From Mangifera indica (Eukaryota > Streptophyta > Magnoliopsida > Sapindales > Anacardiaceae), in the NCBI RefSeq assembly GCF_011075055.1, contig NC_058150.1, positions 1,922,001 to 1,986,000 of the forward strand: a DNA stretch of 64,000 nucleotides, given 5' to 3'. How positions within the stretch are numbered: position 1 is the stretch's first letter; the number at the start of each line of letters is the position of its first letter. A program made the translations under genes and the position numbers. The notes beneath the pieces were generated by a model that saw only the letters and a program-made list of their open reading frames with translations, did no database searches and was not told the origin of the DNA. Positions 1 to 58,965 of this stretch are shown here, piece after piece.

Positions 1-463
1 ACTTAGACTTATAAAAATTCTCATTCATAAACTTTGGATTAATATATACACTACGCGGCATGGTCAATGCTAAAATCCAAAGCCAATCACTGTATCGGCA
101 TTACCAAAATTATTGCCAGAAATCTAGTAGCATTTTCACTAATAGAGACTAAAAGTAGTGGCAAATTATTAAGTATAGCTACTTTTTGTTTCTTTTTCTT
201 GTTTTTTCTCCTTACATGTAGAATAGTATGTTTTCTTCATTATATTATTTAGTTCTAGGGATAATTAATTATATATGTAAATGGTATTTTAGATATTTGA
301 AGGAGTAAATAGTTGGGCGTCAAAGCCAAAGTTGCAGTTTGTTTTTGTATGCAGAGAATGACTGATTGGAAGAGGAAGTTATTACATTAATATTGTCAAT
401 CTTACTAAAATCCAACTGCTTGCTACTGAATTTTGTAATATACCTCCACCTTAGCCCATCCCC

Positions 464-470
464 TATTTAA
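464..470 (+). promoter_or_regulatory. Probable TATA element of the zinc-finger gene
   Basis: TATTTAA lies about 70 bp before the start codon at 538, in a short CT/AC-rich leader. This spacing is normal for a plant TATA box. The rest of bases 1-537 holds no gene I can support. Confidence 0.5.
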
Positions 471-537
471 CCCATTTCCCCATTTCATTCCACATCACCT
501 TTCTATCACCATTTATCTTAAATGTTTCACTAGTACC

Positions 538-1248: not shown

Positions 1249-2246
1249 CAACAAATAAACAAGAAATTACATTGTGTGAGTTCGATTTCTTCATTTGCAG
1301 TTTGAGAAAAAAGAGTGTCATTGATAGACTTGTGTGAGATTTTTTTGGTTCTTTTGAAAGTAAAACGCTTGATTGTTTCATTAGTATATCAGTTTGTGTG
1401 ATGCAAGGTGCTTGGAGATGGAGGCAAAAGGAGAAGAAACAAGACTGAAACTCTTAAAAGCATCTAGTAATTAATTACCTTCAAAGAAAAAAAAAAACAA
1501 GATTTGTTTATTTTTAAGAAGAATTAATAAAAGAAGATTAGGGTTTGAGTGAGACTGGTAAAGTTATTAGCAGTGCAGTGTCATTTTCTGCTACAGATTT
1601 CTGATTAAAGCATGTCTCTGGGCATATATTTCCGTGGGGATATGTTATATATATCTATCACGTATAATGCTAATGGAAAACACCTGTTTGCAGAAACTAC
1701 AGAAATGCCATTTTCTTCTTTGAAAGAAACCTCTCCTTATATATAGCAGATATATATTTCAAGCTCTATACACTCCATTGAATCAATATCTTATATAATT
1801 TAAGTGGGAAGAGAGAGATAATGAAATGAAAATAATGGAAGTGATGTTTGATTTCAAAAGGAACAAATGAGTGAGCCCATTCCGACTGTGGAAGTCCAAG
1901 GCTTGCTCAGAGAAGAAAATTCTGTTCACACAATCAAGCCAAAATCAGTTCATTATATCTCCTTGGGATTTGGGTAGTTTGAGATGAACATAAATACAAA
2001 AGTTGTGGACAATAATAGAAGAGGTGATTCTGGTGAAAGCGAGATGTCGACACCGGGTTAAGGTGAATATTGATGATTGAATTATAAAAAAGATTTTTAT
2101 TTAAAGATTTTCATTCTTGTTAAATAATGTGTATAATGATTTAGGGTTTATAATTACCTTAATTTCAATATGGTATGTGTTTCTAATTAATAATACATAA
2201 AAGAATTATTGCCATTTTTTTGAATTTTAATTTACTTGTTCAATAA

Positions 2247-2250
<4 letters not shown>
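1249..2250. other. Intergenic, 3' flank of the zinc-finger gene
   Basis: AT-rich sequence with no convincing ORF or RNA gene. Short reading frames here are shadows. The first 200-300 bp are presumably the 3' UTR of the upstream gene. Confidence 0.5.

Positions 2251-2322
<72 letters not shown>
2251..2322. repeat. (TA)n microsatellite
   Basis: About 36 uninterrupted TA units, immediately before two MITE-like repeat copies. Confidence 0.97.
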
Positions 2323-2324
<2 letters not shown>

Positions 2325-2630
2325 TTATATAAATGAGTAACATTGAATTAAGAATAAAATAACACATAATCACTTAATGACATATCATTTATGTTATCAT
2401 TTTGTGTACTTAAAATATGTATATATAGCATTGTTCTTTGTTCGTTTTGCAAACAAGCTTAAATTTGAGCCACATGATGTATCATCATATGAGTGAGTGA
2501 TATCAAATTAAAGATAAAATAATACTCAATTATATGATGATACATCATCTATTTATTCATTTTATGTACTCAAATGTGTATATATAAAATTATTTTTTGT
2601 TCATTTTGCAAAGAGGGCTAAATTTGAGTT
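2325..2630. repeat. Two tandem degenerate copies of a dispersed AT-rich MITE-like family
   Basis: Two units of about 150 bp follow one another. Each contains a block reading roughly 'aattaa(g)gataaaataa', a 'tgatgacatatcat'-like stretch, then 'tgtacttaaaatatgtatatata', and each ends in 'gttcattttgcaaa' followed by 'taaatttgag'. The same core recurs near 4.3, 9.7-9.9 and 53.7-54.0 kb, so this is a dispersed family and not a local duplication alone. Confidence 0.7.
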
Positions 2631-2980
2631 GAATTAATTTGGTCTTGAATCAAATAAGTTAAACGTGAGTTGGGATAGTGTTGCTCATGTTCAAGTTAAG
2701 TCAATTCGATTTAAGCAAGTGATTAATAGATTTATCTTTTTTAATTTTTCTTTTTCTTTAGTGGTTATTCTTCTTTTTCAGTGACAATTGATTTTCTTAT
2801 TTAACGTTTTTTAATGGCTTTTTCAATGGTTTCGAGGTAGCCTACATTTAGACTCGGATTGTTTTGAATACTCTCTTATTTGCAAAGAGAGGGGCAAATG
2901 GTCTGGGAGAGAATTTGCTGATTAATATGTTCAAATAGATAGACATTTATAATGCATTTTATTAGTATATAGCTGGCGAG

Positions 2981-3857
2981 TAGGGATGACAATTTGGGTC
3001 CGACTTTAGGGGCTCTGACCCTAACGGGGAGGGGATTCTCTGATAAAAACAAAGAAAGGGGCGGGGATGGGGACGAAAAAAATCTCCGTGATCAGGGACG
3101 GACCGAGGATGGAGATATATATGTCCCCGCCCTCCCCTCCCCTCCCAGCCCCGCCCGATCCCTAGCCCACCCCACCCCCCCCCCCCCCAAATCTAATATA
3201 TTAATATAATAATTTCTGAACTATTAAATTCTAGAAACTTTTACATTATGATTTATTAAAACTATAACTTTAATTTTACTAATTTTTGAATAATCAATTA
3301 TCAACTTTTACTAATTTCTGAACTATTAATCTAATATATTAAAAAAACCCCAGAATCTTATTATCATAAAATGCAAATGCACCAAATTAATTCTATTTCA
3401 ACTTCAAAACTCAGTCAATCAATTCACCAGGTTTTACAAAAAAAAAAACAAATTATAAACTTGATAAAATCAATTGAAGTGAATGAAAAGTGTTAAATTT
3501 AATGTTATTACAAAATTACCCTAAATCACATACATGAAGAGCTACTAATGAAAAGATTGATTATTACATATTGTTAGATTTTGTGAAAACTTTGTATTTG
3601 AACTAAAATAAAAATAAATATTTTGTAGCTCTTGTAGCAAGTGATATTTTGGGAAAATATGATTTATTTTATTTATTGAAATACAAAAAGAAATTAAAAT
3701 TTATATTTACTGGTACGGAGAGGAGATTTTTTCCCGCGGGGACGGGGCAAGGATAGGGAGAAGATTTTCTCTGCGGGGACGGAGAGAGGATGAGAAGGAG
3801 ATTTTTCTTCGCGATAAGGGGACGGGGATTAATATCCCCTCCCTATTGTCATCCCTA
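2981..3857. mobile_element. Non-autonomous hAT-like element with 8-bp target duplication
   Basis: The ends are TAGGGATGACAAT on the left and its exact inverse ATTGTCATCCCTA on the right, flanked by the direct repeat CTGGCGAG (2973-2980 and 3858-3865). An 8-bp duplication and a TAGGG-type terminus are typical of hAT transposons. The sub-terminal parts are GC-rich with repeated 'ggggacgggg'-like motifs on both sides, while the centre is AT-rich. It also holds a C-run near 3174-3188. No transposase is encoded in its 877 bp, so it would depend on a relative elsewhere. The reading frame at 2994-3209 belongs to this repeat and is not a gene. Confidence 0.85.
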
Positions 3858-4214
3858 CTGGCGAGTATTGATGTCACCAAAAGGGGCGTTTAGTTCATCA
3901 TTCGAATTTTCTTAAAACTACTATAAATAAGCTTATGCTTAGAATTGTATGGAAAATATTAATGTTGAAGACCCTGAACTAAACATTACAGATGATTTCA
4001 TACATCCTTCAAAAAAAAAAAAAACGTTTTCCTTGAATGCCTTGTACGGTTTATATTTTATTAGGGATAATACTCTCGGACTCTTGTTCCTTGTTACAGT
4101 TGCACTTCTGATGGAAATGTCGAATGAGTATATAATGAGGTTCAAATTTATTAGAAATTGGAGTCGGTTTAATAAGTACTGTTTATTTTTTTGGCTTAAA
4201 AATGAAAATTATAT

Positions 4215-4410
4215 GTCATGTCTATATAAAATTATACGTATCCACTTTAAATACATAAATAGATATATATTTAATATATGTTATTATGTAATTAGGTGAT
4301 TTTAAATTAAGAATAAAATAATATTTAATCACATAATGACATATATAAATGTGTACTCATTTATATATTCAAAATAAGTACATACAATATTACTTCTTAG
4401 TATATATAGT
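4215..4410. repeat. Single copy of the dispersed AT-rich MITE-like family
   Basis: Contains 'gtaattaggtgattttaaa', 'gaataaaataatatttaatcacataatgaca' split over the core, and a 'tattcaaaataagtaca' end. It shares these with the copy nested at 9.70-9.89 kb. Target duplications are not clear. Confidence 0.6.
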
Positions 4411-4457
4411 TTGATAATATATATTATTAATGCAATAAAACTACATAGAGCAAAAGC

Positions 4458-4990
4458 TTAATTAGCTTCTGCTAGAGTTATTCTCTCATTAGTTGAATCC
4501 AACCTAGAAAAAAAATGAACCCCAATAGCATCATTTTCTGAACCTATTCTGTCAACAATGAAATTTATCAACTCTCCTTCAATGATTATTTGACCACTTA
4601 ACACTAATGAATCATAAACTTCTTTCATTTGTCTAACATAATCATGAATTGTTAGATTCCCTTTCTTAAGTGTTTGTAGAGTCAACTTCAATTCCATGAC
4701 TCTTACCTTTGATTCTAAAACGCAATGGCTTTGAAGAGTACCCCAAATTTCCAAAGCAGTGGTACACTTTGAAATATAACCAAACAAAGATTCAGATATC
4801 AATACAAACAACTAACTCATTAATAGTCTATCATATTTCTTCCAATTCGAGAAATTAGGGTTTGTTTTAACCAAACTTGTTCCTAAATCATCTTTAACCA
4901 TAACAAAAAGAGAAGGTAACGACATAAAACCAGTAAGATGATTTTCAATTTCATAAGTACCGATAGAAAATAATACTTGAACTCTCCTAT
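4458..4990 (-). pseudogene. Ty1/Copia retrotransposon gag fragment
   Basis: Read on the minus strand, the stretch 4811-4458 resembles the UBN2/gag region of plant Copia polyproteins: SLFGYISKCTTALEIWGTL, then LKKGNLTIHDYVRQMKEVYD and a segment ending STNERITLAEAN. Upstream (to about 4990) lies recognisable gag N-terminal sequence interrupted by an in-frame stop, just before the 4811 frame opens. No protease, integrase, reverse transcriptase or LTR is visible nearby. It is therefore a broken, isolated remnant with no expected activity. Confidence 0.8.
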
Positions 4991-7900
4991 AGCATAAATA
5001 TTTTTTGGTAAGTTTAGGACTTACAGAAATCTAGGAAAGAAAACATTGATAATATTTTTTGTTAAGTGAAGCTATGTTGTTCATCATTAAATTAATCTTT
5101 TGTTAGTTATGAATGTGTAGTACTTACTGGTCAATTGCCTAATTATATTATTTTTAATAAATTATTCCCTACCCTGAAAAAACTTAATAGAAATTTGAAA
5201 AATACAGCATTAAACGAATTTAAAACTTGTATTAATCATGGTGGGATAATAACTAGGTCCAGAGAAAGCTGGTGACTATAATGAAAGATAATATAAAGCA
5301 ATTATTGCAAACATAACTTGCGACGAAGAGAAGAGAAAGAATTACTCGTTGTTGCAGGATAAAAATTTAGAAGAAACTAAGCAAAGTACTTTACAGAGGG
5401 ACCAAGAAATCTAGTTTGAGGCGCTGGTCGCACATATATATTTTAACTTAAACAAGGGATAACTTTGGATGTGATCGATGATAATAAAATCTTAGGAGCC
5501 TCTCTGCCTTGGAATTCGCCCGATTGGGAGGGAAGTGAAGTGGTCCCTCTCCCTCGTTTGACATTGTAAAATCAGATGTTTGAAGTTTTTAATTTCTTTC
5601 ATAATCTTTTAATTAAATATTAAATATGATCAAAGTTCTTGATGATCCATGATGAAGTTCTCAGATAACAAGACTATTATGTGTATAAGTGGTAAAGAAT
5701 TATACATGTTTGAATCCTTCATTGGACTATTTCTATTTAATATGTCTCTGTAGGCTATTCTATTATTTTATCATACCAATATCCAGTCCGCTTCGCTTCA
5801 GAAGGTTTCTACTATTATACAGAGAGGAGTTAAATGTGGTTAAGCTACAGCTCTTGGTGGGTTGAAATGTTACAATTTCATCATCCGGATTGACAGCAAA
5901 AACTTTCATGGAAATGACTCGAAGAATTTGAGTTGCATGAAGCAGTTCTGATGAAATTGTGAGAAGGAAAATGAATGCATTGTCGAAAATATAAATTGAG
6001 TTTATAAGTGTGAAGATTGAAACTCATATTACATAAAATCAATTAGTTTGTATTAAAATTCAATCTACATAGTTATATATCACTCTCTTATATTTTATTT
6101 ATTAGATGTAAGACTCTCTTTCTTTCCTTTTTATTTGAGTCTCCAACAAATTACCAACAAATTACTGAAGAAGTGTTTATTCGGGACCCTGGAAGTAATG
6201 AGTTTCAACTTTTGCATCTATCTGACTGGTGTAGTTGGGAATGTTTGCTTTGTATCTTTATTTTTGTCTAAAGAGGAACAAAATGTGCATTAATAGCAAG
6301 TTTGCAGAGTAGAACTACATGTGCAGAAGTGATTAATCGTCCAAAAGAACGGACACAAGCCGATCGACTATGCTTTCTGGTGTAATCGTACAGGAAAAAG
6401 ATAGAAGAGATGCACGAATTTAAAAGCTGCTAATGACTGCTCATCACCAAACTTCTGCCTTTCTTCATCTGATAAAAGTAAATTTCGTATAAAGTTGACA
6501 GCAAACGTGGGGTTCGACAGAAATAAAGAACATGACTGTCATATTTCCTAGCCATTAATGGAAGATTTTGACCTGTTTAAAATTAGTTTCCTGTTTAGGA
6601 GCTTCTCTTTACTCAGCTAGAGAGAAAGATAACTTCTGTTTTTTTTTTGGGGGGGTTAAGTAGATGAGCTTCTTTGTCTCTCTATAAAAAAGTGAGTCTC
6701 TAATTTTTTTTTTTAAAATTTTCATATTGGATCATTTATTTCCTCCATCTTTTAGATCTAATATATCCACTTAACCTTTTTAGTATGCTTAACCCAGAAA
6801 ATCGACATCACCGATGTCTTTAGTCTTCCCTGAACAACTTTCACATACACAAAGCAAAAACAAAACAGATAACCCAGGAAGACCACCAAGTGAACGATAA
6901 AATACCTCCAAGAAACTCCAAAATCTGCCACCACTCAACTAGCAAAATTTTCAAAAAAGTATCCCAACGTCCACACCTAGAATAAAACATGCCGAAATCT
7001 AAAACCAAACAAAAGGTAATTATAACTTTCACAAATAATCAATACTAATTACAAAAAGAAAGAAAAAAAAAAACATAAAAACATCATGCTTGAGGCAAGA
7101 TAATCTGATTCATGCAGCCAAACCGTGAGGCGAGGTAACCACAGCTGCTCAGATATGGCATTAAAAGAAGAGTTTTAAAGGAAAACAATAAAGAAGAAGA
7201 ATAGGCATCAGAAGGAGAGTTTTCTTATAAAAAAAATTAAAGAAGAAGAAGATTGATGGGTTTCTTTGGTGCAGAAGAAGAGTTTTGAAAAAAAAAAAAA
7301 AAGGACGATAAAATGGGTTGGGTGTGCATGAGAAGAAAGAAAAAAATTGAAAGTGGAGAGAAGATTTTGTGTGTTCTGTTAATAGGATATTAGAAGAGGA
7401 AGGTTGTCGGCTAGAGATGCAATTCTGGCCATGACAAGATTTTGTGGCCATGGCGAAATTTTTTCATTAACATTATTAGATTTTAAGTGAAAATGTGTGA
7501 TTTATACATTTAATAAGCCAAAGAGTGAATGTTTAAGCAAAGGAAGAGCTTAAAGAGATTTGACATGTTAGCCACAAGATCATGGACACAAAACTAATAC
7601 TATGACATTATAATTTTTTAAGTAGAGAATGTGACATTTGAATGTCTGTTTTGGATGGTTAATGAGGTTTTATGATGATCAGAAATGATTTTGATCATAT
7701 ATATAAAGACTGTAAAATAATACAAAAAGAAAAAAGATGGATAATTTACACCAGTCCGTAGTAGAATGTACCAACAAGAAAATTTGCTTGTTTCGGATTC
7801 TATGAATATGTATAGCGAGATGTAAAAGCTCTTCAACTGTAACTTCATACTATTACCATTTATTTTTCGTTTGTTTGAAACTGTTGATAGAGATCCAAAC

Positions 7901-8632
7901 TAGGGTTTTCCAAGAAATGCTCATCCACAAGGAGGAGTTGTCTGGGGGACACATTTCTTCTGACCTTTGCCTGGCCTTCTGCGAAAATACTGTCTTACTC
8001 TTACTGAATCTGTGTGAGTATTGTTTTAATTTCCAAGCTCAATATTCATGAATTTGTCATCAACATTTAACCTTACCCTGTCGTGGACCCCTGCAACATC
8101 CGTAGCTTGCAGAAGAGCCAGCTAATAAGAGTGAACATTTATCAGTCGCCTGAAATGATTTTAAGAACTACTTGCCATTGCAATGCCAGAGGAAGCTTGG
8201 TCCCCTCTCCTCTCTCTCTCTTTCTTTCAAGGCGTGTAAAATTTTACCCTCTTCTGCTTTCTGTTTAAGGCTGAAAGCCCTAATTCAAGATTTGATAGAT
8301 ATACAAATGCTGATTTAAGTAAACCCTTTTGGTGCTGACATGCAGATGCAATATCAGTGGTGAGTAGAAATCGACCAAGATTCGAAGTAAAAGCGAGAAA
8401 TCGAGGAATAGTCGCGGTCAATGCATGAGGCTCTTATTCTCAAGTCTCAATCAAATCATTGCATGCCCTTTCTCTCTCTTATCTTTATTTTCATATTTCG
8501 TTTTTCATATTCTTTCAAGAGCCTTCAATTTCAGCCCTCATTATCTCTCTTCACAATCTGCGTTATTAATAGTGACAGTTCCCCTAAGTGCTGCATATCC
8601 TCTCTCTCTCTCCCTCGTCTTTTTGCAATTTT
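4991..8632. other. Intergenic DNA without a supported gene
   Basis: AT-rich with short poly-A/T and CT-rich tracts. None of the short frames shows codon-like conservation or a domain. I see no RNA gene. Confidence 0.5.
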
Positions 8633-9106
8633 TTTCCCTAGAAACCCAGCCGGAATCAGAATGCTCTTCGAGAATGAATTAATAATGTTGTATAAGTGAG
8701 ATCTTAAATTTAGTTATTAATTTTATAATAATTAAATAAATTAATGAAAATTTTAATTTTAAAATATTATTAAAAATATATAAATCTATATTTTCTTATA
8801 TATAAAACTTTCTCTTTTTATATATTTTCAAATTTTCATTCATGTGTCATCTTATTAATGATTTAAATCTTCTTTAAAATCACAGTTAATTGCCAACCCA
8901 TTAAAATTATGTACCAAGATAAGTGAAAAATTAATTTATTTATTATTTATCCATAATGACTTTTATTTGGTTTAGTGTAAAATAGTGTTTATTATTTGTT
9001 TGAAATTATGAGAATCAATTATATTTATCATTTTTTATCACCAACACCATCAGTCTTTCTAAAAAAATTTCATTTTTATGCTCACCAACTATATTATCGT
9101 CCAACT

Positions 9107-9214
9107 AATGATTAGTGGTGTTGATAGCGAAGATTATAGTAAAACCGTTTTCGTCACTACATAGTGACGGAAACGGTTTTACTATAATCTTCGCTATCAA
9201 CACCACTAATCATT
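9107..9214. repeat. Near-perfect 108-bp hairpin palindrome in the copy 1 promoter
   Basis: Two 54-bp arms beginning 'aatgattagtggtgttgata' and ending with its inverse meet at 9160/9161, with about two mismatches. Copies 2 and 3 have only one of the arms at this place, next to a short natural palindrome 'cactatatagtg'. The other arm was therefore gained in copy 1. Confidence 0.93.
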
Positions 9215-9288
9215 ATTTTCACAAACCTATCACTCTTCTCAAGTGAGCCCAACTATCAATCATCTCTATCACTAGCACTCACCATTTA

Positions 9289-9962
9289 GGAGATGTTTGA
9301 TTTGAGTAATATTTTATTACCAAAATAGAAAGATTACTTTGAAAATAGATTACTTAGAATAGTATTGAGTATAAATGATTACTATGTTTGATAAAATTTG
9401 ATAGGTATAAATAATTATTGTATTTGGTTAAAGGTAATAAAATATTACTAATAAATTATTTTACTTAAATGCATTTGAATATAATTATTTTTAAATATTT
9501 TTTATATTATTTGTCATATTAATTAAAAATAAATTTATTTTTGTCTCAAAAAATTAATAAATAATAATATAATTATAACAAAATCAAGATTACCTTGGTA
9601 ATATTTAAATACCTAAGGTAAATGTGGTAATCAGATTATCATCTATATTACTTGTCATGTCAGCATTAGTAATATAAGATTACTGTAATATTTTATTATG
9701 AGCAATGCTATATGTACCTTTTTTTTTTTTACACAATTCATGTACACAATGGTGTGTCATTATGTAATTAGGTGATTTTAAAACATGTGTCATCATATAA
9801 TAAAGAAACATCCAATCACATGATAACACCACATCTGTGTACACAAATTGTATATCAAAAATGGGTACACATAGTTTTATTGTTTTATTATTGACAAACC
9901 AAACAAGAGAATAAAAGATAGATTACCAAGGTAATCTTCAAAAACTAAAACCAAACGGCCCC
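9289..9962. mobile_element. PIF/Harbinger-like (Tourist-type) MITE inserted only in copy 1
   Basis: Imperfect inverted termini GGAGATGTTTGATTT and GGGGCCGTTTGGTTT (inverse of the right end) are flanked by TTA on both sides (9286-9288 and 9963-9965). Copies 2 and 3 carry the empty site with a single TTA. The GGG..GTTTGGTTT terminus and 3-bp TTA duplication are characteristic of PIF/Harbinger MITEs. The 674 bp encode nothing. A second repeat is nested inside at about 9700-9888. Confidence 0.85.
9700..9888. repeat. Dispersed AT-rich MITE-like family copy nested in the Harbinger MITE
   Basis: It begins 'gcaatgctatatgtacc' and ends with a roughly inverse 'gggtacacatagtttt', enclosing 'gtaattaggtgattttaaa' and 'aatcacatgataaca'. 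These termini make this the best-preserved member in the window and suggest that the family is a MITE with terminal inverted repeats. Confidence 0.65.
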
Positions 9963-10649
9963 TTAATTACAAAATTCTTGCATTGTCATTTTGATTACTA
10001 ATACCATCAATCATCTTTACCTTGAGATTTTATTGATCATGATAAATCTTTTTTTATAAAGTCACTAGTTGAATTCAATATATCATCTCATGAAAAGCTT
10101 TGGTGTTCAAAGTCCTCCCATCTCCAACACCCACAAATTTGGTGATCAATATCTTATCATTTTGGAACCTTAAAGGTACAATTTTGAAATATGTTTTCAA
10201 GCTCATAAGAGTAAAGCAACTAGAATATAGTAAAATGTGAGAAAAAGAGAGTAAAGAATATAGCATTTTCGTGATTTTAACGCAATTTGGCCGGAGTGAT
10301 GCGATTTGGTTAAAATCACATTGAGATCAGTGATTCTAACCAAATTGCTCCACCTTGAAAATGGGTTTTGTTAGCCAATTTTTATAAAACACGTTTTCAA
10401 AAGAGAAAAATAAAAGTAGGAAAGGAAAAGACAAAAAAAATTTAAAAGAAAAAGAAAAAGACCAAGCCATATGTCGACCATTCACTGGTTGGTGCTTTAG
10501 AAAATATTTTAAAATCGAATCCAACTCTTCCGAATCCGTCAACAGCAAAAGCAAAGGCAATCTATTCAAAGTAAAAACTTTTTTAACGCTCGACTCCACT
10601 CATCGACTTTAACCAAACCAAACCGTTGGTAGCGTAATTCAGTCTGCCA

Positions 10650-12431
10650 ATGGCTTCTCAACAAGTCAAAGAAAGTCTAGGCACTCTGAACAAGGACTCC
10701 TTCGTTGCCCTCCTCACCAATCTCATTGGAGAGTCCAAGTTTGTCCAAAACAACCCTCCAGAGTTGATCCCTCAAGAGGAAAGAGTGGTCAAACATGTGC
10801 TCGATGTTCTTCTTCCTTATAGCACGGCCAATGGAGGACCCTTGCTTGTTAACCACGTCACATATTCTCCCGGTAGAGGAAATCTTATTGTTGAGTATCC
10901 TGGAATTGAGCTCGGAAAGATCTTGTCTTTTGTTGGCATGCACATGGATGTTGTCACTGCTAATCCTAATGACTGGGTTTGTTTTTTTTTTGCTTTCGAT
11001 CTCTCTTTTCGTATTGCAGAATTGTGGGTTTGATTTAGATCCGTCTTTTACTGGGTTGTTTATATGTCAAAATGGTTTTTTTAAGTTTGAAATTTGTTGT
11101 GGGGAATTTAGAATTTTGTTTTAAAGTCTGCATAGAGAATTGTGAATTGTATTTATATAGGGATTAAATAGGTTACTGATGATTACGGGTAATCATATGA
11201 TTACCGTATGAGCAGGAATTTGATCCTTTTACATTGAGCATTGATGGGGAAAAGCTTCGCGGCCGTGGTACTACTGATTGTTTGGGACATGTTGCCCTTG
11301 TGACTGAGCTAATGAAGAGGCTGGGGGAGACTAAGCCGAAATTGAAGTCAACTGTGATGGCAGTTTTTATAGCTAATGAGGAGAACTCTGCCATAACAGG
11401 GGTTGGTGTCGATGCACTTGTGAAAGATCGGCTTCTTAACAAGTTGAAGGGAGGTCCTCTGTAAGTAATTGCTAGGACATAAATTCAGCTATTATTATTG
11501 AACTCTTATAATAAATATGAAACATCATTTTGAAATTCTACTTCTTTATTTAGTTTATTTTGTGTGTTAGTTGTCTGATATGATATTTTGTTGACAGTTA
11601 CTGGATTGACACAGCAGATAAACAGCCTTGCATTGGTACTGGAGGTATGATACCCTGGAAACTTCATGTGACTGGGAAGCTTTTTCACAGTGGTCTACCT
11701 CATAAGGTATGCCATTATAATATTTGTTGCCAATAGTTATCTTCTCACATCTTACCATGGTAGGAAATTGTTTGATGACTATATATTCTATGAAGTTTAA
11801 AAAGTTCTATTGGATTGTTTTTCTGGTTTTGGTTTAAACATTTTGAAAAATGGAGTAATCGGCAAAATATGCATGCTCACAGAGATGGAATGCAAATTCC
11901 CTTTTTTGATATGTAAATAAAATGAAACTGAAATGGGGAGACATCGTGCAATAAGTCAATGTATGCAAAATGTATTTCAGAAAATTTATACCAAAGTAAA
12001 ATACTGTTCTTAGTTGAAGCTCTCTGAGTGATGCTTTTATTTTACTGAGAAGAAACTATTGTTAGCAAAAATAAAATCTGAAACAGCATGATCAGAATGT
12101 ACACATCTATAATGTTATGGTTGTCATTGGACATCTGCAGGCTATAAATCCCTTGGAGCTAGCCATGGAGGCTCTAAAAGAAATCCAAACACGATTTTAC
12201 AGAGATTTTCCACCTCACCCAAAGGAGCAGGACTATGGGTTTGCAACACCTTCAACCATGAAACCAACCCAATGGCATTGTGAGTTGAAACTTGAAACTA
12301 GTAAGCTATTGAAGGAAAGAAATATCCTTTTATTTATAAAATTTATGTTCTTTATTGCAGATCCAGGAGGTGGTATCAATCAAATTCCTTTTGAGTGTAC
12401 AGTATCAGGAGATGTCAGGTTCAAAATTTAG
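10650..12431 (+). pseudogene. Truncated N-acetylornithine deacetylase gene, copy 1 (exons 1-5 only)
   Basis: Exons by homology with copy 3: 10650-10976, 11216-11460, 11598-11706, 12141-12279, 12361-12418. The frame is open through all five and encodes the M20 metallopeptidase metal-site motifs GMHMDVV and the ANEEN glutamates. The gene then stops: exons 6-10 are missing because the sequence inverts at 12503. If the donor after exon 5 is not used, translation ends at TAG 12429-12431, giving about 296 residues against 436 in copy 3. Without the C-terminal third of the catalytic domain it is unlikely to be an active enzyme. It keeps the same proximal promoter and leader as copy 3, so it may be transcribed. 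It converges on copy 2 with a 69-bp gap. Confidence 0.9.
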
Positions 12432-14274
12432 TCAGATTTTTTTAATTGAAGAGGCCATTAATATATAATGATGTCTCACAAAATTTTTTTTCTTCTTAAT
12501 TTTGAACCTGACATCTCCTGATACTGTACACTCAAAAGGAATTTGATTGATACCACCTCCTGGATCTGCAATAAAGAACATAAATTTTATAAATAAAAGG
12601 ATATTTCTTTGCTTCAATAGCTTACTAGTTTCAAGTTTCAACTCACAATGCCATTGGGTTGGTTTCATGGTTGAAGGTGTTGCAAACCCATAGTCCTGCT
12701 CCTTTGGGTGAGGTGAAAAATCTCTGTAAAATCGTGTTTGGATTTCTTTTAGAGCCTCCATGGCTAGCTCCAAGGGATTTATAGCCTGCAGATGTCCAAT
12801 GACAACCATAACATTATAGATGTGTACATTCTGATCATGCTGTTTCAGATTTTATTTTTGCTAACAATAGTTTCTTCTCAGTAAAATAAAAGCATCACTC
12901 AGAGAGCTTCAACTAAGAACAGTATTTTACTTTGGTATAAATTTTCTGAAATACATTTTGCATACATTGACTTATTGCACGATGTCTCCCCATTTCAGTT
13001 TCATTTTATTTACATATCAAAAAAGGGAATTTGCATTCCATCTCTGTGAGCATGCATATTTTGCCGATTACTCCATTTTTCAAAATGTTTAAACCAAAAC
13101 CAGAAAAACAATCCAATAGAACTTTTTAAACTTCATAGAATATATAGTCATCAAACAATTTCCTACCATGGTAAGATGTGAGAAGATAACTATTGGCAAC
13201 AAATATTATAATGGCATACCTTATGAGGTAGACCACTGTGAAAAAGCTTCCCAGTCACATGAAGTTTCCAGGGTATCATACCTCCAGTACCAATGCAAAG
13301 CTGTTTATCTGCTGTGTCAATCCAGTAACTGTCAACAAAATATCATATCAGACAACTAACACACAAAATAAACTAAATAAAGAAGTAGAATTTCAAAATG
13401 ATGTTTCATATTTATTATAAGAGTTCAATAATAATAGCTGAATTTATGTCCTAGCAATTACTTACAGAGGACCTCCCTTCAACTTATGAAGAAGTCGATC
13501 TTTCACAAGTGCATCGACACCAACCCCTGTTATGGCAGAGTTCTCCTCATTAGCTATAAAAACTGCCACCACAGTTGACTTCAATTTCGGCTTAGTCTCC
13601 CCCAGCCTCTTCATTAGCTCAGTCACAAGGGCAACATGTCCCAAACAATCAGTAGTACCACGGCCACGAAGCTTTTCCCCATCAATGCTCAATGTAAAAG
13701 GATCAAATTCCTGCTCATACGGTAATCATATGATTACCCGTAATCATCAGCAACCTATTTAATCCCTATATAAATACAATTCACAATTCTCTATGCAGAC
13801 TTTAAAACAAAATTCTAAATTCCCCACAACGAATTTCAAACTTAAAAAAACCATTTTGACATATAAACAACCCAGTAAAAGACGGATCTAAATCAAACCC
13901 ACAATTCTGCAATATGAAAAGAGAGATCAAAAGCAAAAAAAACAAACCCAGTCATTAGGATTAGCAGTGACAACATCCATGTGCATGCCAACAAAAGACA
14001 AGATCTTCCCGAGCTCAGTTCCAGGATACTCAACAATAAGATTTCCTCTACCGGGAGAATATGTGACGTGGTTAACAAGCAAGGGTCCTCCATTGACCGT
14101 GCTATAAGGAAGAAGAACATCGAGCACATGTTTGACCACTCTGTCCTCTTGAGGGATCAACTCTGGAGGGTTGTTTTGGACAAACTTGGACTCTCCAATG
14201 AGATTGGTGAGGAGGGCAACGAAGGAGTCCTTGTTCAGAGTGCCCAGACTTTCTTTGACTTGTTGAGAAGCCAT
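12432..14274 (-). pseudogene. Truncated inverted N-acetylornithine deacetylase gene, copy 2 (exons 1-5 only)
   Basis: Minus-strand exons: 14274-13948, 13710-13466, 13328-13220, 12785-12647, 12565-12508. Exon 1 is identical to copy 3 as read. Exon 4 has one private change (second Pro of DFPPHP becomes Ser). Exons 6-10 are absent. Without splicing after exon 5, the frame runs across the loop and into the copy 1 strand, ending at 12432 after about 25 extra residues. This carboxy tail is junction-created and has no family counterpart. It is transcribed, if at all, towards copy 1 (tail to tail) and away from copy 3 (head to head). Confidence 0.9.
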
Positions 14275-15579
14275 TGGCAGACTGAATTACGCTACCAAAG
14301 GTTTGGTTTGGTTAAAGTCGATGAGTGGAGTCGAGCGTTAAAGAAGTTTTTACTTTGAATAGATTGCCTTTGCTTTTGCTGTTGACGGATTCGGAAGAGT
14401 TGGATTCGATTTTAAAATAATTTCTAAAGCACCAACCAGTGAATGGTCGACATATGGCTTGGTCTTTTTCTTTTTCTTTTAAATCTTTTTTGTCTTTTCC
14501 TTTCCTACTTTTATTTTTCTCTTTTGAAAACGTGTTTTATAAAAATTGGCTAACAAAACCCATTTTCAAGGTGGAGCAATTTGGTTAGAATCACTGATCT
14601 CAATGTGATTTTAACCAAATCACATCACTCCGGGCCAAATTGCGTTAAAATCACGAAAATGCTATATTCTTTACTCTCTTTTTCTCACATTTTTCTATAT
14701 TCTAGTTGCTTTACTCTTATGAGCTTGAAAACATGTTTCAAAATTGTACCTTTAAGGTTCCAAAATGATAAGATATTGATCACCAAATTTGTGGGTGTTG
14801 GAGATGGGAGGACTTTGAACACCAAAGCTTTTCATGAGATGATATATTGAATTCAACTAGTGACTTTATAAAAAAAGATTTATTATGATCAATAAAATCT
14901 CAAGGTAAAGATGATTGATGGTATTAGTAATCAAAATGACAATGCAAGAATTCTGTGATTAAATGGTGAGTGCTAGTGATAAAGATGACTGATGGTTGGG
15001 CTCACTTGAGAAGAGTGATGGGTTTGTGAAAATAATGATTAATGGTGTTGATAACGAAGATTATAATAAAACCGTTTTCATCACTATATAGTGAGGTTTG
15101 ACGGTAAGATAATTGGTGAACATAAAAATGAAATTTTTATTAGAAAGAGATCATTAATGACTCATAGTGTTGGTGATAAAAAATGATATATATGATTGAT
15201 TTTCATAATTTCAAACAAATAGTAAATAGTATTTTACACTAAACCAAATAAAAATCATTATGGATAAATAATAAATAAATTAATTTTTCACTTATCCTGG
15301 TACATAATTTTAATGGGTTGGCAATTAACTGTGATTTTAAAGAAGATTTAAATCATTAATAAGATAACACATGAATGAAAATTTGAAGATATATAAAAAG
15401 AGAAAGTTTTATATATAAGAAAATATGGATTTAATTTTTTTAATAATATTTTAAAATTAAAATTTTAATTTATTTATTTAATAATTATAAAATTAGTTAC
15501 TAAATTTAAAATTTTACTTATACAACGTGATTAATTCATTCTCGAAGAGCATTCTGATTCTGGCTGGGTTTCTAGGAGA
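12498..15579 (-). repeat. Copy 2 of the triplicated segment (inverted)
   Basis: This is the inverse of copy 1 and copy 3. Paired coordinates of copies 1 and 2 add to 24926 through exons 2-5 and to 24924 at the start codons, so the arms are nearly indel-free inside the gene. The unpaired loop is 12429-12497, 69 bp. It lacks the MITE and the hairpin found in copy 1. At its left (promoter) end it passes into the palindrome at 15.58-17.58 kb, shared with copy 3. Confidence 0.95.
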
Positions 15580-17583
15580 AAAAAAAAAGATATTGAAATT
15601 TTTACCACTATTTTATTCCGTGTATACAAAAATGTCACATATCCTAAAGCTTTTATAAATATATCACAACAGTAATCACCTTCCCCAAAATATCTCTCTT
15701 CAATCTTTCATGCATAAATTCTCTCTCTTCTTCCTCTCCTTTCAAAGTGATAAAGGAATCATGTAGAAAATAGAATAAATGTTTCAAAAACAAAAGAAAA
15801 AAACTGAAAAAAGAAATAGATTTCAGATTAAGAATTTTTTACTGAAAAAAATTCAAAAGGTTGGCAAAAAAAAAATCTGAAAAAAAACTGGTTGGCAGAC
15901 TTATGGAATTTTATTTTGTAAATTTTAGATTTCAACTTTAACAAATAAGATAAGTATTTAATTAAAAAAACTGAAAAAAAAAAGTTAAAAAGGGCTGGCA
16001 TGGGTTGGCCACACGCCAACCCTTTTTTAATTTTTGAAGGTTGGTGTTAACGCCAGCCCTTGGCGTTAACGGAAACCCTCAAAAAAAATTAAAACAGGCA
16101 AAGGGTTGGCGTCCTTTGCCTGTTTTAATATAATATATATTATATATTATAATAATATAAAAAAATAGGGTTGGCGTTGACCCTCTTTTTTTTTTTAATT
16201 AAATTTTTATTTTTAGAAGGCAACCCCTTTTATTTTTTTAATTAAATTTTTTTTGTTTAAAAAATATGAACACCCACCCTTTTTAATTTTTTAAATTAAA
16301 TTTTAATTTATTATAAATTTAAATTAATTTGATTTGATTGGATTAATTTGAAATTTGATCCAAATTTAAATTAATACAATAAAAAACAAAAGAAAATAAT
16401 ACTGAAAAAAAATTAATAAGGGTGGGTGTTCATATTTTTTAAACAAAAAAAATTAATAAAGGTGGCCAACCTCTTTTTTTATATTATTATAATATATTAT
16501 ATAATATATATATATATATATATAATTAATATTATAATTATATATTATATATATATAATACTATAATCTATAATATTATAATTATTAAATATATAATATA
16601 GATATAATTAATATATTAATATTATATATATTATAATATATTTATATATATTATAATATATATTATATATTATATATTATAATAATATAAAAAAAAAAGG
16701 GTTGGCCACCTTTATTAATTTTTTTTGTTTAAAAAATATGAACACCCACCCTTATTAATTTTTTTTCAGTATTATTTTCTTTTGTTTTTTATTGTATTAA
16801 TTTAAATTTGGATCAAATTTCAAATTAATCCAATCAAATCAAATTAATTTAAATTTATAATAAATTAAAATTTAATTTAAAAAATTAAAAAGGGTGGGTG
16901 TTCATATTTTTTAAACAAAAAATTTTAATTAAAAAAATAAAAAGGGTTGCCTTCTAAAAATAAAAATTTAATTAAAAAAAAAGAGGGTCAACGTCAACCC
17001 TATTTTTTTATATTATTATAATATATAATATATATTATATTAAAACAGGCAAAGGATGCCAACCTTTTGCCTGTTTTAATTTTTTTTGAGGGTTGGCGCG
17101 TTAACGCCAAGGGCTGGCGTTAACACCAACCTTCAAAAATTAAAAAAGGGTTGGCCATGCCAGCCCTTTTTAACTTTTTTTTTTTTCAGTTTTTTTAATT
17201 AAATACCTATCTTATTTGTTAAAGTTGAAATCTAAAATTTACAAAATAAAATTCCATAAGTCTGTCAACCAGTTTTTTTTCAGATTTTTTTTTTGCCAAC
17301 CTTTTGAATTTTTTTCAGTAAAAAATTCTTAATCTGAAATCTATTTCTTTTTTCAGTTTTTTTCTTTTGTTTTTGAAACATTTATTCTATTTTCTACATG
17401 ATTCCTTTATCACTTTGAAAGGAGAGGAAGAAGAGAGAGAATTTGTACATGAAAGATTGAAGAGAGATATTTTGGGGAAGGTGATTACTGTTGTGGTATA
17501 TTTGTGAAAGCTTTAGGATATGTGACATTTTTGTATACACGGAATAAAATAATGGTAAAAATTTCAATATCTTTTTTTTTTTT
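15577..17583. repeat. 2-kb palindrome of nested fold-backs between copies 2 and 3
   Basis: Sequence from 15577 inward is repeated in inverse up to about 17583. This extends the copy 2/copy 3 inverted repeat to arms of about 4 kb (12498-16480 and 16690-20655). Each arm contains smaller fold-backs: one pair shares 'gtttaaaaaatatgaacacc' (near 16255 and 16430), another pairs 'aaaacaggcaaagg' with 'cctttgcctgtttt' (16094-16127). Short motifs of the type GGTTGGCGTTAACGCCA recur many times in both orientations. No protein is encoded. It may be a fold-back transposable element that came to lie between the head-to-head genes, since copy 1 lacks it. Confidence 0.85.
16481..16692. repeat. Pure A/T core of the palindrome
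   Basis: About 200 bp with no G or C apart from isolated bases, made of 'atataatatta' variants, sitting at the symmetry centre between copies 2 and 3. It is the loop and tip of the hairpin formed by the two 4-kb arms. Confidence 0.85.
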
Positions 17584-20500
17584 CCTAGAAACCCAACCAG
17601 AATCAGAATGCTCTTCGAGAATGAATTAATCACGTTGTATAAGTAAAATTTTAAATTTAGTAACTAATTTTATAATTATTAAATAAATTAATTAAAATTT
17701 TAATTTTAAAATATTATTAAAAAAATTAAATCCATATTTTCTTATATATAAAACTTTCTCTTTTTATATATCTTCAAATTTTCATTCATGTGTTATCTTA
17801 TTAATGATTTAAATCTTCTTTAAAATCACAGTTAATTGCCAACCCATTAAAATTATGTACCAGGATAAGTGAAAAATTAATTTATTTATTATTTATCCAT
17901 AATGATTTTTATTTGGTTTAGTGTAAAATACTATTTACTATTTGTTTGAAATTATGAAAATCAATCATATATATCATTTTTTATCACCAACACTATGAGT
18001 CATTAATGATCTCTTTCTAATAAAAATTTCATTTTTATGTTCACCAATTATCTTACCGTCAAACCTCACTATATAGTGATGAAAACGGTTTTATTATAAT
18101 CTTCGTTATCAACACCATTAATCATTATTTTCACAAACTCATCACTCTTCTCAAGTGAGCCCAACCATCAGTCATCTTTATCACTAGCACTCACCATTTA
18201 ATCACAGAATTCTTGCATTGTCATTTTGATTACTAATACCATCAATCATCTTTACCTTGAGATTTTATTGATCATAATAAATCTTTTTTTATAAAGTCAC
18301 TAGTTGAATTCAATATATCATCTCATGAAAAGCTTTGGTGTTCAAAGTCCTCCCATCTCCAACACCCACAAATTTGGTGATCAATATCTTATCATTTTGG
18401 AACCTTAAAGGTACAATTTTGAAACATGTTTTCAAGCTCATAAGAGTAAAGCAACTAGAATATAGAAAAATGTGAGAAAAAGAGAGTAAAGAATATAGCA
18501 TTTTCGTGATTTTAACGCAATTTGGCCGGAGTGATGTGATTTGGTTAAAATCACATTGAGATCAGTGATTCTAACCAAATTGCTCCACCTCGAAAATGGG
18601 TTTTGTTAGCCAATTTTTATAAAACACGTTTTCAAAAGAGAAAAATAAAAGTAGGAAAGGAAAAGGCAAAAAAGATTTAAAAGAAAAAGAAAAAGACCAA
18701 GCCATATGTCGACCATTCACTGGTTGGTGCTTTAGAAATTATTTTAAAATCGAATCCAACTCTTCCGAATCCGTCAACAGCAAAAGCAAAGGCAATCTAT
18801 TCAAAGTAAAAACTTCTTTAACGCTCGACTCCACTCATCGACTTTAACCAAACCAAACCGTTGGTAGCGTAATTCAGTCTGCCAATGGCTTCTCAACAAG
18901 TCAAAGAAAGTCTGGGCACTCTGAACAAGGACTCCTTCGTTGCCCTCCTCACCAATCTCATTGGAGAGTCCAAGTTTGTCCAAAACAACCCTCCAGAGTT
19001 GATCCCTCAAGAGGACAGAGTGGTCAAACATGTGCTCGATGTTCTTCTTCCTTATAGCACGGTCAATGGAGGACCCTTGCTTGTTAACCACGTCACATAT
19101 TCTCCCGGTAGAGGAAATCTTATTGTTGAGTATCCTGGAACTGAGCTCGGGAAGATCTTGTCTTTTGTTGGCATGCACATGGATGTTGTCACTGCTAATC
19201 CTAATGACTGGGTTTGTTTTTTTTTGCTTTTGATCTCTCTTTTCATATTGCATAATTGTGGGTTTGATTTAGATCCGTCTTTTACTGGGTTGTTTATATG
19301 TCAAAATGGTTTTTTTAAGTTTGAAATTCGTTGTGGGGAATTTAGAATTTTGTTTTATAGAGAATTGTGAATTGTATTTATATAGGGATTAAATAGGTTG
19401 CTGATGATTACGGGTAATCATATGATTACCGTATGAGCAGGAATTTGATCCTTTTACATTGAGCATTGATGGGGAAAAGCTTCGCGGCCGTGGTACTACT
19501 GATTGTTTGGGACATGTTGCCCTTGTGACTGAGCTCATGAAGATGCTGGGGGAGACTAAGCCGAAATTGAAGTCAACTGTGGTGGCAGTTTTTATAGCTA
19601 ATGAGGAGAACTCTGCCATAACAGGGGTTGGTGTCGATGCACTTGTGAAAGATCGGCTTCTTCATAAGTTGAAGGGAGGTCCTCTGTAAGTAATTGCTAG
19701 GACATAAATTCAGCTATTATTATTGAACTCTTATAATAAATATGAAACATCATTTTGAAATTCTACTTCTTTATTTAGTTTATTTTGTGTGTTAGTTGTC
19801 TGATATGATATTTTGTTGACAGTTACTGGATTGACACAGCAGATAAACAGCCTTGCATTGGTACTGGAGGTATGATACCCTGGAAACTTCATGTGACTGG
19901 GAAGCTTTTTCACAGTGGTCTACCTCATAAGGTATGCCATTATAATATTTGTTGCCAATAGTTATCTTCTCACATCTTACCATGGTAGGAAATTGTTTGA
20001 TGACTATATATTCTATGAAGTTTAAAAAGTTCTATTGGATTGTTTTTCTGGTTTTGGTTTAAACATTTTGAAAAATGGAGTAATCGGCAAAATATGCATG
20101 CTCACAGAGATGGAATGCAAATTCCCTTTTTTGATATGTAAATAAAATGAAACTGAAATGGGGAGACATCGTGCAATAAGTCAATGTATGCAAAATGTAT
20201 TTCAGAAAATTTATACCAAAGTAAAATACTGTTCTTAGTTGAAGCTCTCTGAGTGATGCTTTTATTTTACTGAGAAGAAACTATTGTTAGCAAAAATAAA
20301 ATCTGAAACAGCATGATCAGAATGTACACATCTATAATGTTATGGTTGTCATTGGACATCTGCAGGCTATAAATCCCTTGGAGCTAGCCGTGGAGGCTCT
20401 AAAAGAAATCCAAACACGATTTTACAGAGATTTTCCACCTCACCCAAAGGAGCAGGACTATGGGTTTGCAACACCTTCAACCATGAAACCAACGCAATGG

Positions 20501-20728
20501 CATTGTGAGTTGAAACTTGAAACTAGTAAGCTATTGAAGGAAAGAAATATCCTTTTATTTATAAAATTTATGTTCTTTATTGCAGATCCAGGAGGTGGTA
20601 TCAATCAAATTCCTTTTGAGTGTACAGTATCAGGAGATGTCAGGTTCAAAATTTAGTCAGATTTTTTTAATTGAAGAGGCCATTAATATATAATGATGTC
20701 TCACAAAATTTTTTTTCTTCTTAATTTT
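17581..20728 (+). repeat. Copy 3 of the triplicated segment (direct)
   Basis: This matches copies 1 and 2 from the 'cctagaaacccaa' point near 17584 to 20728, the position where copy 1 breaks off. After 20728 the sequence continues uninterrupted into the rest of the gene, so this copy represents the intact arrangement. It carries private changes, including a roughly 10-bp deletion in intron 1 near 19356. Confidence 0.93.
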
Positions 20729-23710
20729 CTTTGTACATGCAGGTTAACTCCCTTCTACAGGTAAGCCAGTGCCTTTTGTTCTTGAAATTAGACTATCAGG
20801 ATTTATTTTTGTTCTTTCAAGTAATTGATCTGAAAAATTCCAAGCATTTGGTATTTCTAATAAGATAAGTAGTATATTATTTCCAATGCTTTGATACTTT
20901 TTTCAGTGTAAAAGATGTGATGGAGAAACTACAAGAATTTGTGGATGACATAAATGAGAATATAGAGAAGTTGGACACAAGGGGTCCAGTTTCAAAATAT
21001 GTTCTCCATGATGAAAATTTGAGAGGAAGGTGTGTCTTCTCTCTTGCTTGACTCTGCTTAGGACCTTTTCCACATCTAGAATTTAGCTGCAGTTTTTTTC
21101 TAGACTTTGCATCCATTGTTTAGATAATACTTTTTGGTGTGGATACTTTTCTTCTATATATGTGCTTCTTTTTGCAGCCTTACGTTAACTTTTAATGAGG
21201 CGAATTCTGGAGTTGCTTGTAATCTTGATTCTCGGGGGTTTCATGTGCTCTGCAAGGCAACTGAAGAGGCAGTTGGGCATGTGAAACCTTATTCAATCAC
21301 TGGGAGTTTACCACTCATTCGAGAACTGCAAGTGAGTTATTTATAATTTTCTGTCTGTGTACTTTGCTAGATTTGCATTTCTTTGTTTAATCATTTTTCT
21401 TAATTTTGTTTGTTAGGATGAAGGCTTTGATGTTCAAACTGCAGGCTATGGTATGATATTATCACTACTTTTTGGCAGTTTGCATTTTACTTTCTTAACT
21501 TGTGGTTGAAAATTAAATAGGCCATAATTTTTGAATTCTGCCTAAGAATGGTCACCTATTGTTGCAACTTGGTTTGTTTCAAACGTACTTTTATTTCCAA
21601 GTAGTAAAAATTATATCCATTTTGTGCTATACTAGTCCAGATAGTCAAATCCCATTCGTTGCTTCACTGTCATCGGATTTGGAATTTAACCATAATGACA
21701 TGTGCTGTAAATTGAGAAGTTAATAGATAGTTTGTGTGGATATAAATGTGAATTTTATCAGAAGGGGTGGTATTCGGTATGCTTGTAGCCAGCTTTAACT
21801 AATTATTAGGGTTAGACAGATGAATTGTTGTTGTAGTCTGCCAGGGAGCTTATCTGTGGATGAGCTTCCATATAGTGTCATCTTCCCTTAAAATGATAAG
21901 GCTTTCCAGTTCATGGGTCAAAATTAAACCCATTAAAAGTAAACAGAAGTGATAATCCAAAGATAGATGATATGAGTTACTAGTTTAGTTAATTTTTCTC
22001 TGTATGGTAGCAACTCAAACTTTTTTTACTCTGGTGTAGTATGAGTCTGGATTTGGATGGAACTCTATCAAGTTCCACACTTTGGTAAAAAGTCTTACTC
22101 CCATTTTACTCTTTTAAGTAATGTTCTAAAAAGCCAGATTGTTATAGGGATTTCTTGGGTTGTAAAAATACAAATTTATATACTGAACAATGACTGGAAT
22201 AAATATTACAATCATTGTGCGAGGAATTGCTTAATTAGATTTAAAAAATAAAAATCTCATTGATAGGGAATTGTTTTGCGTCAAAGTGTCATATATCAAG
22301 TGAAGGTATGGAGCATGTGTATCAAAATTTCACATACAAGATTTTGATAGTAATAGCCTCTAATTTACTCATTACATGAGCCTCATAGTGAAGGTTTATT
22401 CGGACTCAAGGCTTTTGAATATACCAAGGGTGCACCTGAAAAGGTCACATCTTTATATTTACTAATTAATTGGAATGGTATGATGATGTGTATATCATAA
22501 GAAAGGTTATGCAATGAGAAATAAATATAGACAGAAGAATAATTAGGAAAAGAATCTCAACAGATTAGAAGGACAAGTTTATAGAGTTGAGTGAGATAGA
22601 TAGAGATGAGTTTATATGAAATGATTACATACTCCAAATAATATCTCAGAATACATATAGTATATTAATAATCCAAAACTAAAGAGCAGCTGCTTATAAG
22701 CCCTGTATCAATGATGCTTTAATATAACATCTATTACATCTGGTCTAAGTTACCGATTCTTCAAACCTTGGTCCCTCTGTTAAGCAATTTGAAATGTATA
22801 AACTTGAACCATTTTTCTAGATACAAAAATTAGGGTCCTTGGTGGGAAGAAAAAAATTTTAGATAAAAGAAATATGACTGAAAAGGGAAGAGAAAGGAGA
22901 AGAATTATCAGTCAGTAATGATAGATATTGATAGTGTGGAGAGAGAAAAAGAGATGGATCAGCTGAAGAAACACTCTTTAGTTATTGATATCACATCTCT
23001 TCTTTGTCCTCGCTCTCAAACAGAGTTTCTCTATTTTATAAACATCCTTCTCACATCTCCATTTCACATTTTACCTTTACTGTTAAGATTGTCGTAATTG
23101 TACAGTGGACTTAACAATAACCGTAGACATTAAAAGGGTATCATTTTGTAAGTTCATATCAAATTTTGCATTTATCTTCTATCCTCTAGGTTAGCAATGA
23201 AACGGTCCAGTTGTGAGACAATGCTGTTTTCAAGTAGTAAACTTCCTGTTTTTTCTTCATTGTGGTAGTGACTGCACGGTCTAGTGTAGGGGGAAATATG
23301 TTCTGCTGGAGCCTTTATGAACTGTAATCTGGTTTTTGCATGTAGTAGAATGGTAATTTGGAGTTCAGGCTTGTATACAGTGTTTTAAGATCTACTCAAG
23401 AATTTCTGGGCCAAAAATAACGCAGTTGTCTTCTGTCATTTACAATTCTGTTTCAACAGATTGCAGCCTTCTGATTTACAAATGATTTCTTTGTTTTTAT
23501 ACTCTCCTCATCTCAAAAATGTACATTATCTGGTGAAGATAGAATCTGGGAGCTATGGAAGTTAATCAAATTTTGTTTATTGATTTTATGTTGCATGCAT
23601 CTGCAGGCTTAATGGCGACGTACCATGCCAAGAACGAGTACTGTCTTCTATCGGATATGTGTCAAGGATTCCAGGTTTTTGTCAGCATTATCTCCCAATT
23701 AGAAGATTGA
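18885..23710 (+). CDS. NAOD: N-acetylornithine deacetylase (M20 family), the only complete copy
   Basis: Hydrolyses N2-acetylornithine to ornithine and acetate, feeding arginine and polyamine synthesis. Ten exons: 18885-19211, 19441-19685, 19823-19931, 20366-20504, 20586-20643, 20743-20760, 20907-21029, 21178-21331, 21417-21450, 23607-23710. Together they make 1311 nt, 436 residues, close to Arabidopsis At4g17830. Metal-site residues of the M20 fold are visible: H98 and D100 in GMHMDVV, D130 in TTDCLGH, E164/E165 in ANEEN. The later segments PGGGINQIP and RGPVSKYVL are also family signatures. Exon 6 is only 18 nt. Intron 9 is 2156 bp. Copy 3 alone has Met at residue 144, where copies 1 and 2 have Arg. 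It is divergent from copy 2 across a shared palindromic upstream region. It lies directly upstream of BCM, as in Arabidopsis. Confidence 0.93.
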
Positions 23711-58911: not shown

Positions 58912-58965
58912 TTTGAGAAACTCAATTCTAACCGTACTCCAAAATCTAAACAAGTTTATCAAATG

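Follow-up and report, generated by a model that had tools for sequence, protein, structure and literature searches.

In persimmon, inverted copies of a gene, known as OGI, silence the intact gene, and the soybean CHS cluster and rice Lgc1 are natural inverted gene repeats that are also tied to silencing. The tail-to-tail PAI1-PAI4 pair of Arabidopsis gives rise to fold-back double-stranded RNA, and PAI copies that are not linked to it carry methylation (PMC3203196), while in poplar an inverted repeat of ARR17 silences ARR17 (PMC7403218). Inverted triplications that arise from replication template switching have been described in yeast and human genomes (PMC10766186, PMC4689423, PMC13334657). 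Here we describe a locus that can be compared with both groups, found in a 64,000-nt stretch of Mangifera indica DNA (NC_058150.1, positions 1,922,001-1,986,000, assembly GCF_011075055.1; hereafter the window, whose own numbering is used for all positions). The locus contains three copies, in direct, inverted and direct order, of the promoter region and first five exons of an acetylornithine deacetylase-like gene that has ten exons. On balance we favour an origin of this triplication by a replication template switch at a 6-bp inverted repeat in intron 5, with the consequence that the truncated copies, if transcribed, would give hairpin RNA predicted to be diced into small interfering RNAs (siRNAs) matching the third copy.

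The triplicated locus and its junction in intron 5

Self-comparison of the window confirmed the three copies in the order and at the positions that an earlier, sequence-only reading of this DNA had given, and resolved the locus into the following parts.

8629..12428, forward strand: copy 1, promoter region and exons 1-5, ATG at 10650, truncated in intron 5 (self-comparison)
12429..12497, no strand: loop of 69 bp separating copies 1 and 2, the same sequence as 20654-20722 in intron 5 of the intact gene
12498..15585, reverse strand: copy 2, inverted promoter region and exons 1-5 (self-comparison)
15586..17575, no strand: head-to-head spacer, itself a palindrome with ~1-kb arms common to copies 2 and 3 and an almost pure A+T centre at ~16480-16690
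17576..20653, forward strand: copy 3, promoter region plus exons 1-5, belonging to the intact gene (self-comparison)
18885..23710, forward strand: intact gene with 10 exons, encoding an acetylornithine deacetylase-like protein of 436 aa in the M20 peptidase family (gene model, Pfam and protein matches)

The inverted arms of copies 1 and 2 were aligned over 10984-12431/12495-13942 (99%), 10286-10989/13935-14638 (98%) and 9963-10292/14633-14962 (98%), forming a tail-to-tail palindrome with nearly gap-free arms of ~2.47 kb (9963-12428/12498-14962). The inverted arms proposed earlier were therefore real, but their proposed length of 1.8 kb corresponds only to the stretch from the ATG to the junction. 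Copies 2 and 3 were 99% identical over 12495-13794/19357-20656, 13935-14638/18521-19224 and 14633-15983/17177-18527, and copies 1 and 3 were 98.5% identical over 2,541 bp. Copies 2 and 3 form a second palindrome, head-to-head, in which the homology continues for ~1 kb beyond the region common with copy 1 (over 16690-17569, 874 columns with 16 substitutions, plus 21 gap columns), and around its centre near 16585 only 3 of 211 bases are G or C. The splice dinucleotides and open frame of exons 1-5 were preserved in all three copies, as were ~690 bp upstream of each ATG. Exons 6-10 and the stop at 23710 are reached by copy 3 only, with all introns GT-AG, so that the third copy alone is complete, as had been claimed.

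The 69-bp tail-to-tail loop was found at exactly the place given earlier, and can now also be seen to be native intron 5 sequence. The junction of copies 1 and 2 coincides exactly with a 6-bp inverted pair, AAAATT/AATTTT with a 69-bp spacer, that is native to this intron and still legible in the intact copy:

12423..12428, forward strand: AAAATT, left half of the junction inverted repeat
12498..12503, forward strand: AATTTT, right half of the junction inverted repeat
20648..20653, forward strand: native AAAATT in the intact intron 5
20723..20728, forward strand: native AATTTT in the intact intron 5, 69 nt past its partner

At a spacer of 69, at least 6 matching bases occur at 0.08% of the window positions and 0.02% of those inside the gene; around the breakpoint, at least 6 matching bases are reached by 9 of 20370 position pairs (spacer 4-100). 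From the sequence of this junction we infer a replication template switch or fold-back, of the class that takes in origin-dependent inverted-repeat amplification (ODIRA), tandem inversion duplication and iterative template switching. A single replication-based event would have folded back at intron 5 on one side and at the AT-rich palindrome on the other. The putative origin as a replication-type inverted triplication at the intron 5 junction is well supported, and it is the best-supported part of the whole interpretation.

Inverted triplications are described as using inverted repeats of ~5 nt, 40-80 nt apart (PMC10766186), and their junctions as preserving native short interrupted inverted repeats (PMC4689423). 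The locus resembles ODIRA at yeast SUL1 and the human inverted triplications in its direct-inverted-direct order and in a junction lying at such a native repeat, whose 6 bp and 69-bp spacer fit the ODIRA-type dimensions (PMC10766186, PMC4689423). Unlike the yeast and human cases, it concerns a plant nuclear gene, with a unit of ~3-4 kb and copies old enough to have diverged, including a diverged 5' part of copy 1; the likeness lies in copy order and one legible junction, whereas ODIRA in the strict sense would also place a replication origin inside the amplified unit. The small inverted triplications described in PMC13334657 likewise show duplication/inversion/duplication order and reverse-complement junctions, among which 6 bp dominates, whereas their median lengths (148/160/148 bp) and median spacer (30 bp) are far below the unit of >3 kb and the 69-bp spacer of this locus.

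Divergence and history of the copies

The earlier description of three copies held for their order, but copy 1 is not a clean copy, since it carries a 674-bp insertion and, over 8629-9288, 45 substitutions of its own among 609 columns. The density of copy-1-only substitutions (66 in total) then dropped to 21/1488 columns over 9963-11460 and 0/968 over 11461-12428, as the tail-to-tail centre is approached (the falls between bins have p = 2.5e-11 and 4e-5; one column, at 10300, was counted in two bins). Upstream of its ATG (9963-10649), copy 1 had 9 unique substitutions in ~687 columns, and upstream of 8629 it showed no homology with copies 2 and 3. Copies 2 and 3 differed at 17 of 3077 columns (0.55%) in addition to 11 gap columns, and carried 8 and 9 unique substitutions, respectively; those were evenly spread to the left and right of 11460 (12 vs 5, p = 1.0), which fits independent mutation following one event. 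Two features mark copy 1:

9289..9962, no strand: insertion of 674 bp, copy 1 only, counterpart not found in copies 2 and 3
9106..9215, no strand: near-perfect foldback of 110 bp in copy 1, 4 of 110 positions differing from its own reverse complement

The insertion has TTA at both sides and short terminal inverted repeats (ends read by eye), and we take it, from the general features of the class, to resemble a Tourist/Harbinger-type miniature inverted-repeat transposable element (MITE). Most of the left half of the foldback is missing from copies 2 and 3, owing either to a deletion in their ancestor or to a small template switch in copy 1.

These data are most simply read as one triplication, after which each copy mutated independently and copy 1 exchanged its left part with a haplotype that had diverged. 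The copy 1 pattern could fairly be put down to gene conversion near the palindrome centre instead. The 5' part of copy 1 would thus have been exchanged, or the arms converted one to another, after the triplication, and the MITE-like insertion into copy 1 would likewise have followed it. Plant substitution rates are 2.5-7e-9 per year, from which the triplication would be roughly 0.4-1.1 million years old, provided that no gene conversion took place. Were the inverted copies homogenised by gene conversion, the triplication could be as old as the divergence of the left part of copy 1 (1.4-7.4%), and the arms near the palindrome centres would have been made alike later. The drop in copy-1-only substitutions towards the tail-to-tail centre is what such conversion would leave, but a single later exchange of the left part of copy 1 with another haplotype explains it equally, and no gradient of this kind is seen among the unique substitutions of copies 2 and 3; we hold this older age to be possible, though rather unlikely.

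The same divergence bears on whether fold-back reads were built into the contig as an assembly or library artefact. One nanopore study put such reads at ~0.55-0.6% of its genomic reads (PMC12870357), artificial palindromes are reported as products of whole-genome amplification (PMC6218980), and the arms could have been taken from two haplotypes. Arms copied from one molecule should, however, be identical, whereas copies 2 and 3 have substitutions of their own and copy 1 has its 66; two fold-backs would presumably also be required. A single-molecule fold-back is unlikely because copy 1 is diverged upstream and carries the 674-bp insertion, and we regard an artefact as very improbable.

The template-switch origin itself has observations to contend with. 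The head-to-head centre is too AT-rich for a short inverted repeat to be named, and the left flank of copies 2 and 3 has no match in 1-8628, that is, beside copy 1, because of which the founding repeat is unreadable at this end. With an AT-rich centre and a missing flank, the two-junction model is therefore supported from one junction. Even at the tail-to-tail end, a better 7-bp inverted pair with a spacer of 51, one of the 9 pairs near the breakpoint, lies at almost the same place, yet was not used. In addition, the simple form of ODIRA with integration into the homologue found no support: it expects many copy-3-only differences to the right of the exchange, of which there were just 2 in 968 columns. 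The reciprocal 2:1 pattern of that model was thus absent, with 66 copy-1-only substitutions on the left, although a local shortage of haplotype differences on the right side could mask it.

The intact gene and the predicted hairpin

Both the M20 catalytic and the dimerisation domain were found in the product of the intact gene (PF01546, 75.1 bits, cut-off 24.6; PF07687, 54.3 bits, cut-off 21). A protein database search gave 1513 matches, and the figures on homologues given here are from the best 120 of these, 119 of which were 82-89% identical and one 68%, many of them being named acetylornithine deacetylase. A search of solved structures matched 14 sequences, each of them a distant relative from the M20 family (for example, succinyl-diaminopimelate desuccinylases). 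Elsewhere in the window, mitochondrial carrier exons (PF00153) lie at 45478-46869 on the forward strand; two Hibiscus entries (P0105, P0114) are annotated as one protein of 729 aa in which M20 and mitochondrial carrier domains are combined, a hint that the two genes are neighbours in Hibiscus too.

By its sequence, the product is predicted to help make ornithine. Lowering of the Arabidopsis homologue led to less ornithine, early flowering and impaired seed set, according to a review reporting Molesini 2015 (PMC4520006). The sequence-only reading had spoken of the single intact gene for ornithine synthesis, a description that is unsupported: the same review describes a cyclic NAOGAcT route to ornithine that plants also possess, so this gene is not the sole way to ornithine.

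Among the unique changes in exons 1-5, the ratio of replacement to silent was 5:3 in copy 1, 2:2 in copy 2 and 2:2 in copy 3. Residues at positions 44, 86 and 157 of copy 1 and at 201 and 251 of copy 2 go against nearly all 120 homologues. These residues, together with the insertion in copy 1 and its lack of homology upstream of 8629, would suit inert debris, that is, truncated copies that are untranscribed or heterochromatic and without effect, the decaying scar of a replication error. On the other hand, exons and splice sites are intact in copies 1 and 2, and the stretch upstream of the copy 1 ATG has accumulated only the few substitutions given above. Inert debris is a real possibility, to which we would give somewhat less than an even chance.

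An inverted-repeat silencer had also been proposed for this locus, and its geometry was borne out. A 327-nt RNA around the loop was computed to fold at -225.1 kcal/mol (z -31; none of 100 shuffles folded as well), as against -52.4 kcal/mol (z +1.6) for the corresponding stretch of the intact gene. The inverted repeat is near-identical to the intact gene: 1946 of 2446 21-nt windows of arm 1 were found exactly in arm 2, and for the mRNA of the intact exons 1-5, exact counterparts of 584 and 638 of its 858 21-nt windows were found in arms 1 and 2, respectively. Since the tail-to-tail centre sits within an intron, no native terminator is present there. Copies 1 and 2, if transcribed, would thus yield hairpin RNA and from it siRNAs matching the intact third copy, whose silencing is a plausible prediction. 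Hairpin transgenes are described as methylating their own repeat and promoter (PMC9263138). A near-perfect inverted repeat, if transcribed, would be expected to be methylated and largely self-silencing, with copy 3 silenced partially at most.

Several points speak against the silencing part of this interpretation. Two AATAAA signals, at 12570 and 12592 on the strand of copy 1, might terminate its transcripts shortly past the loop and leave a short stem only, and splicing of the sense arm but not of the antisense arm would break the duplex at the introns. The proxy for a methylation footprint, C-to-T and G-to-A changes among the unique substitutions, did not differ significantly between copy 2 (4/8) and copy 3 (2/9; one-sided p = 0.25). 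A stronger-looking contrast confined to 9963-12428 (4/6 vs 0/7) was dropped, as it omitted promoter sites. CpG observed/expected ratios in copies 1-3 were 0.44, 0.38 and 0.44, compared with 0.26 for the remainder of the gene and 0.51 for the whole window. A separate point is that two conserved positions are altered in the intact copy 3, namely 144 (119 of the 120 homologues have K, R or Q) and 236 (M in 120 of 120), which leaves constraint on copy 3 itself in doubt.

Among silencing loci, the Arabidopsis PAI1-PAI4 pair is similar in being tail-to-tail with near-identical sequence elsewhere, but most PAI1 transcripts, made from a foreign promoter, are described as ending in their own 3' untranslated region at the centre (PMC3203196). 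In the present locus the centre lies in intron 5 without a native terminator, each arm has a promoter region, and the intact copy adjoins. The poplar ARR17 inverted repeat also consists of inverted gene copies, and it silences the intact ARR17 (PMC7403218); yet that repeat and OGI sit on the Y and suppress an autosomal gene, as small RNAs support (PMC7403218), whereas this locus is cis-linked and its silencing a prediction. The inverted gene copies recall as well the raw material in the inverted-duplication model of plant microRNA genes (PMC3237417), but the window contained no match to a microRNA family at Rfam gathering thresholds, at which one tRNA and nothing else was found among RNA families.

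An active natural silencer in the style of PAI1-PAI4 or poplar ARR17, in which transcripts of the copy 1-2 hairpin give siRNAs that clearly lower the intact gene, is compatible with the template-switch origin but goes further. The near-identical tail-to-tail arms, the ~690 bp kept upstream of the ATGs, the lack of a native terminator at the junction, the strong loop fold and the many exact 21-mers to the intact mRNA all suit it, and lowering the Arabidopsis homologue had the effects on ornithine, flowering and seed set given above (PMC4520006). The footprint test was not significant, however, early poly(A) signals may be present, and hairpin transgenes with perfect repeats are said to tend to silence themselves (PMC9263138); an active silencer of this strength seems unlikely to us. 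Less likely again, and a long shot, is that the replication slip made a metabolic gene its own linked feedback silencer, in which the native promoters of copies 1 and 2 would drive hairpins and, through their strength, dose the siRNAs acting on the neighbouring intact copy, thereby setting ornithine and polyamine supply. In that case the hairpin RNA would inevitably hold antisense because the fold-back lies in an intron.

The rest of the window and wider meaning

Matches were obtained for six of ten neighbouring reading frames in a Pfam search. A copia-type gag fragment (4461-4811, reverse strand) scored 26.3 bits, just under the Pfam cut-off of 27; a single-exon frame at 52007-52648 on the forward strand matched Polyketide_cyc2 and, judging by its motifs, presumably resembles the PYL abscisic acid receptors; and a frame at 57925-58974 on the reverse strand contained a VQ motif (PF05678). 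A second inverted repeat (50742-51071/51301-51636), with arms of ~330 bp at 89% identity and many short TGCG-like repeats in its spacer, has the look of a foldback or MITE-type element. The tRNA at 61794-61882 on the reverse strand was called by ARAGORN as tRNA-SeC with anticodon tca, but its Rfam alignment contains ...GUCUCAU and a 17-base insert in the anticodon region. The call is probably a misreading, because this alignment resembles what we take to be the intron-bearing elongator tRNA-Met of plants.

Among the papers listed from an open-licence library on inverted triplication and plants, none describes, judged by title and the opening of the abstract, an inverted triplication of a plant nuclear gene of this kind, and in the same library nothing was found that combines an inverted triplication with a gene, hairpin RNA and siRNA. 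A plant nuclear example in which the founding 6-bp repeat is legible in the intact copy would make the template-switch model testable in plants. If the feedback silencer were true, it would represent a young, cis-linked stage on the way from a gene towards a small-RNA locus born of inverted duplication, with its birth junction still legible. More generally, if transcribed, the pair of copies 1 and 2 would connect an error of replication directly with the origin of an siRNA locus derived from a gene, an early stage in the inverted-duplication model of plant small-RNA genes.

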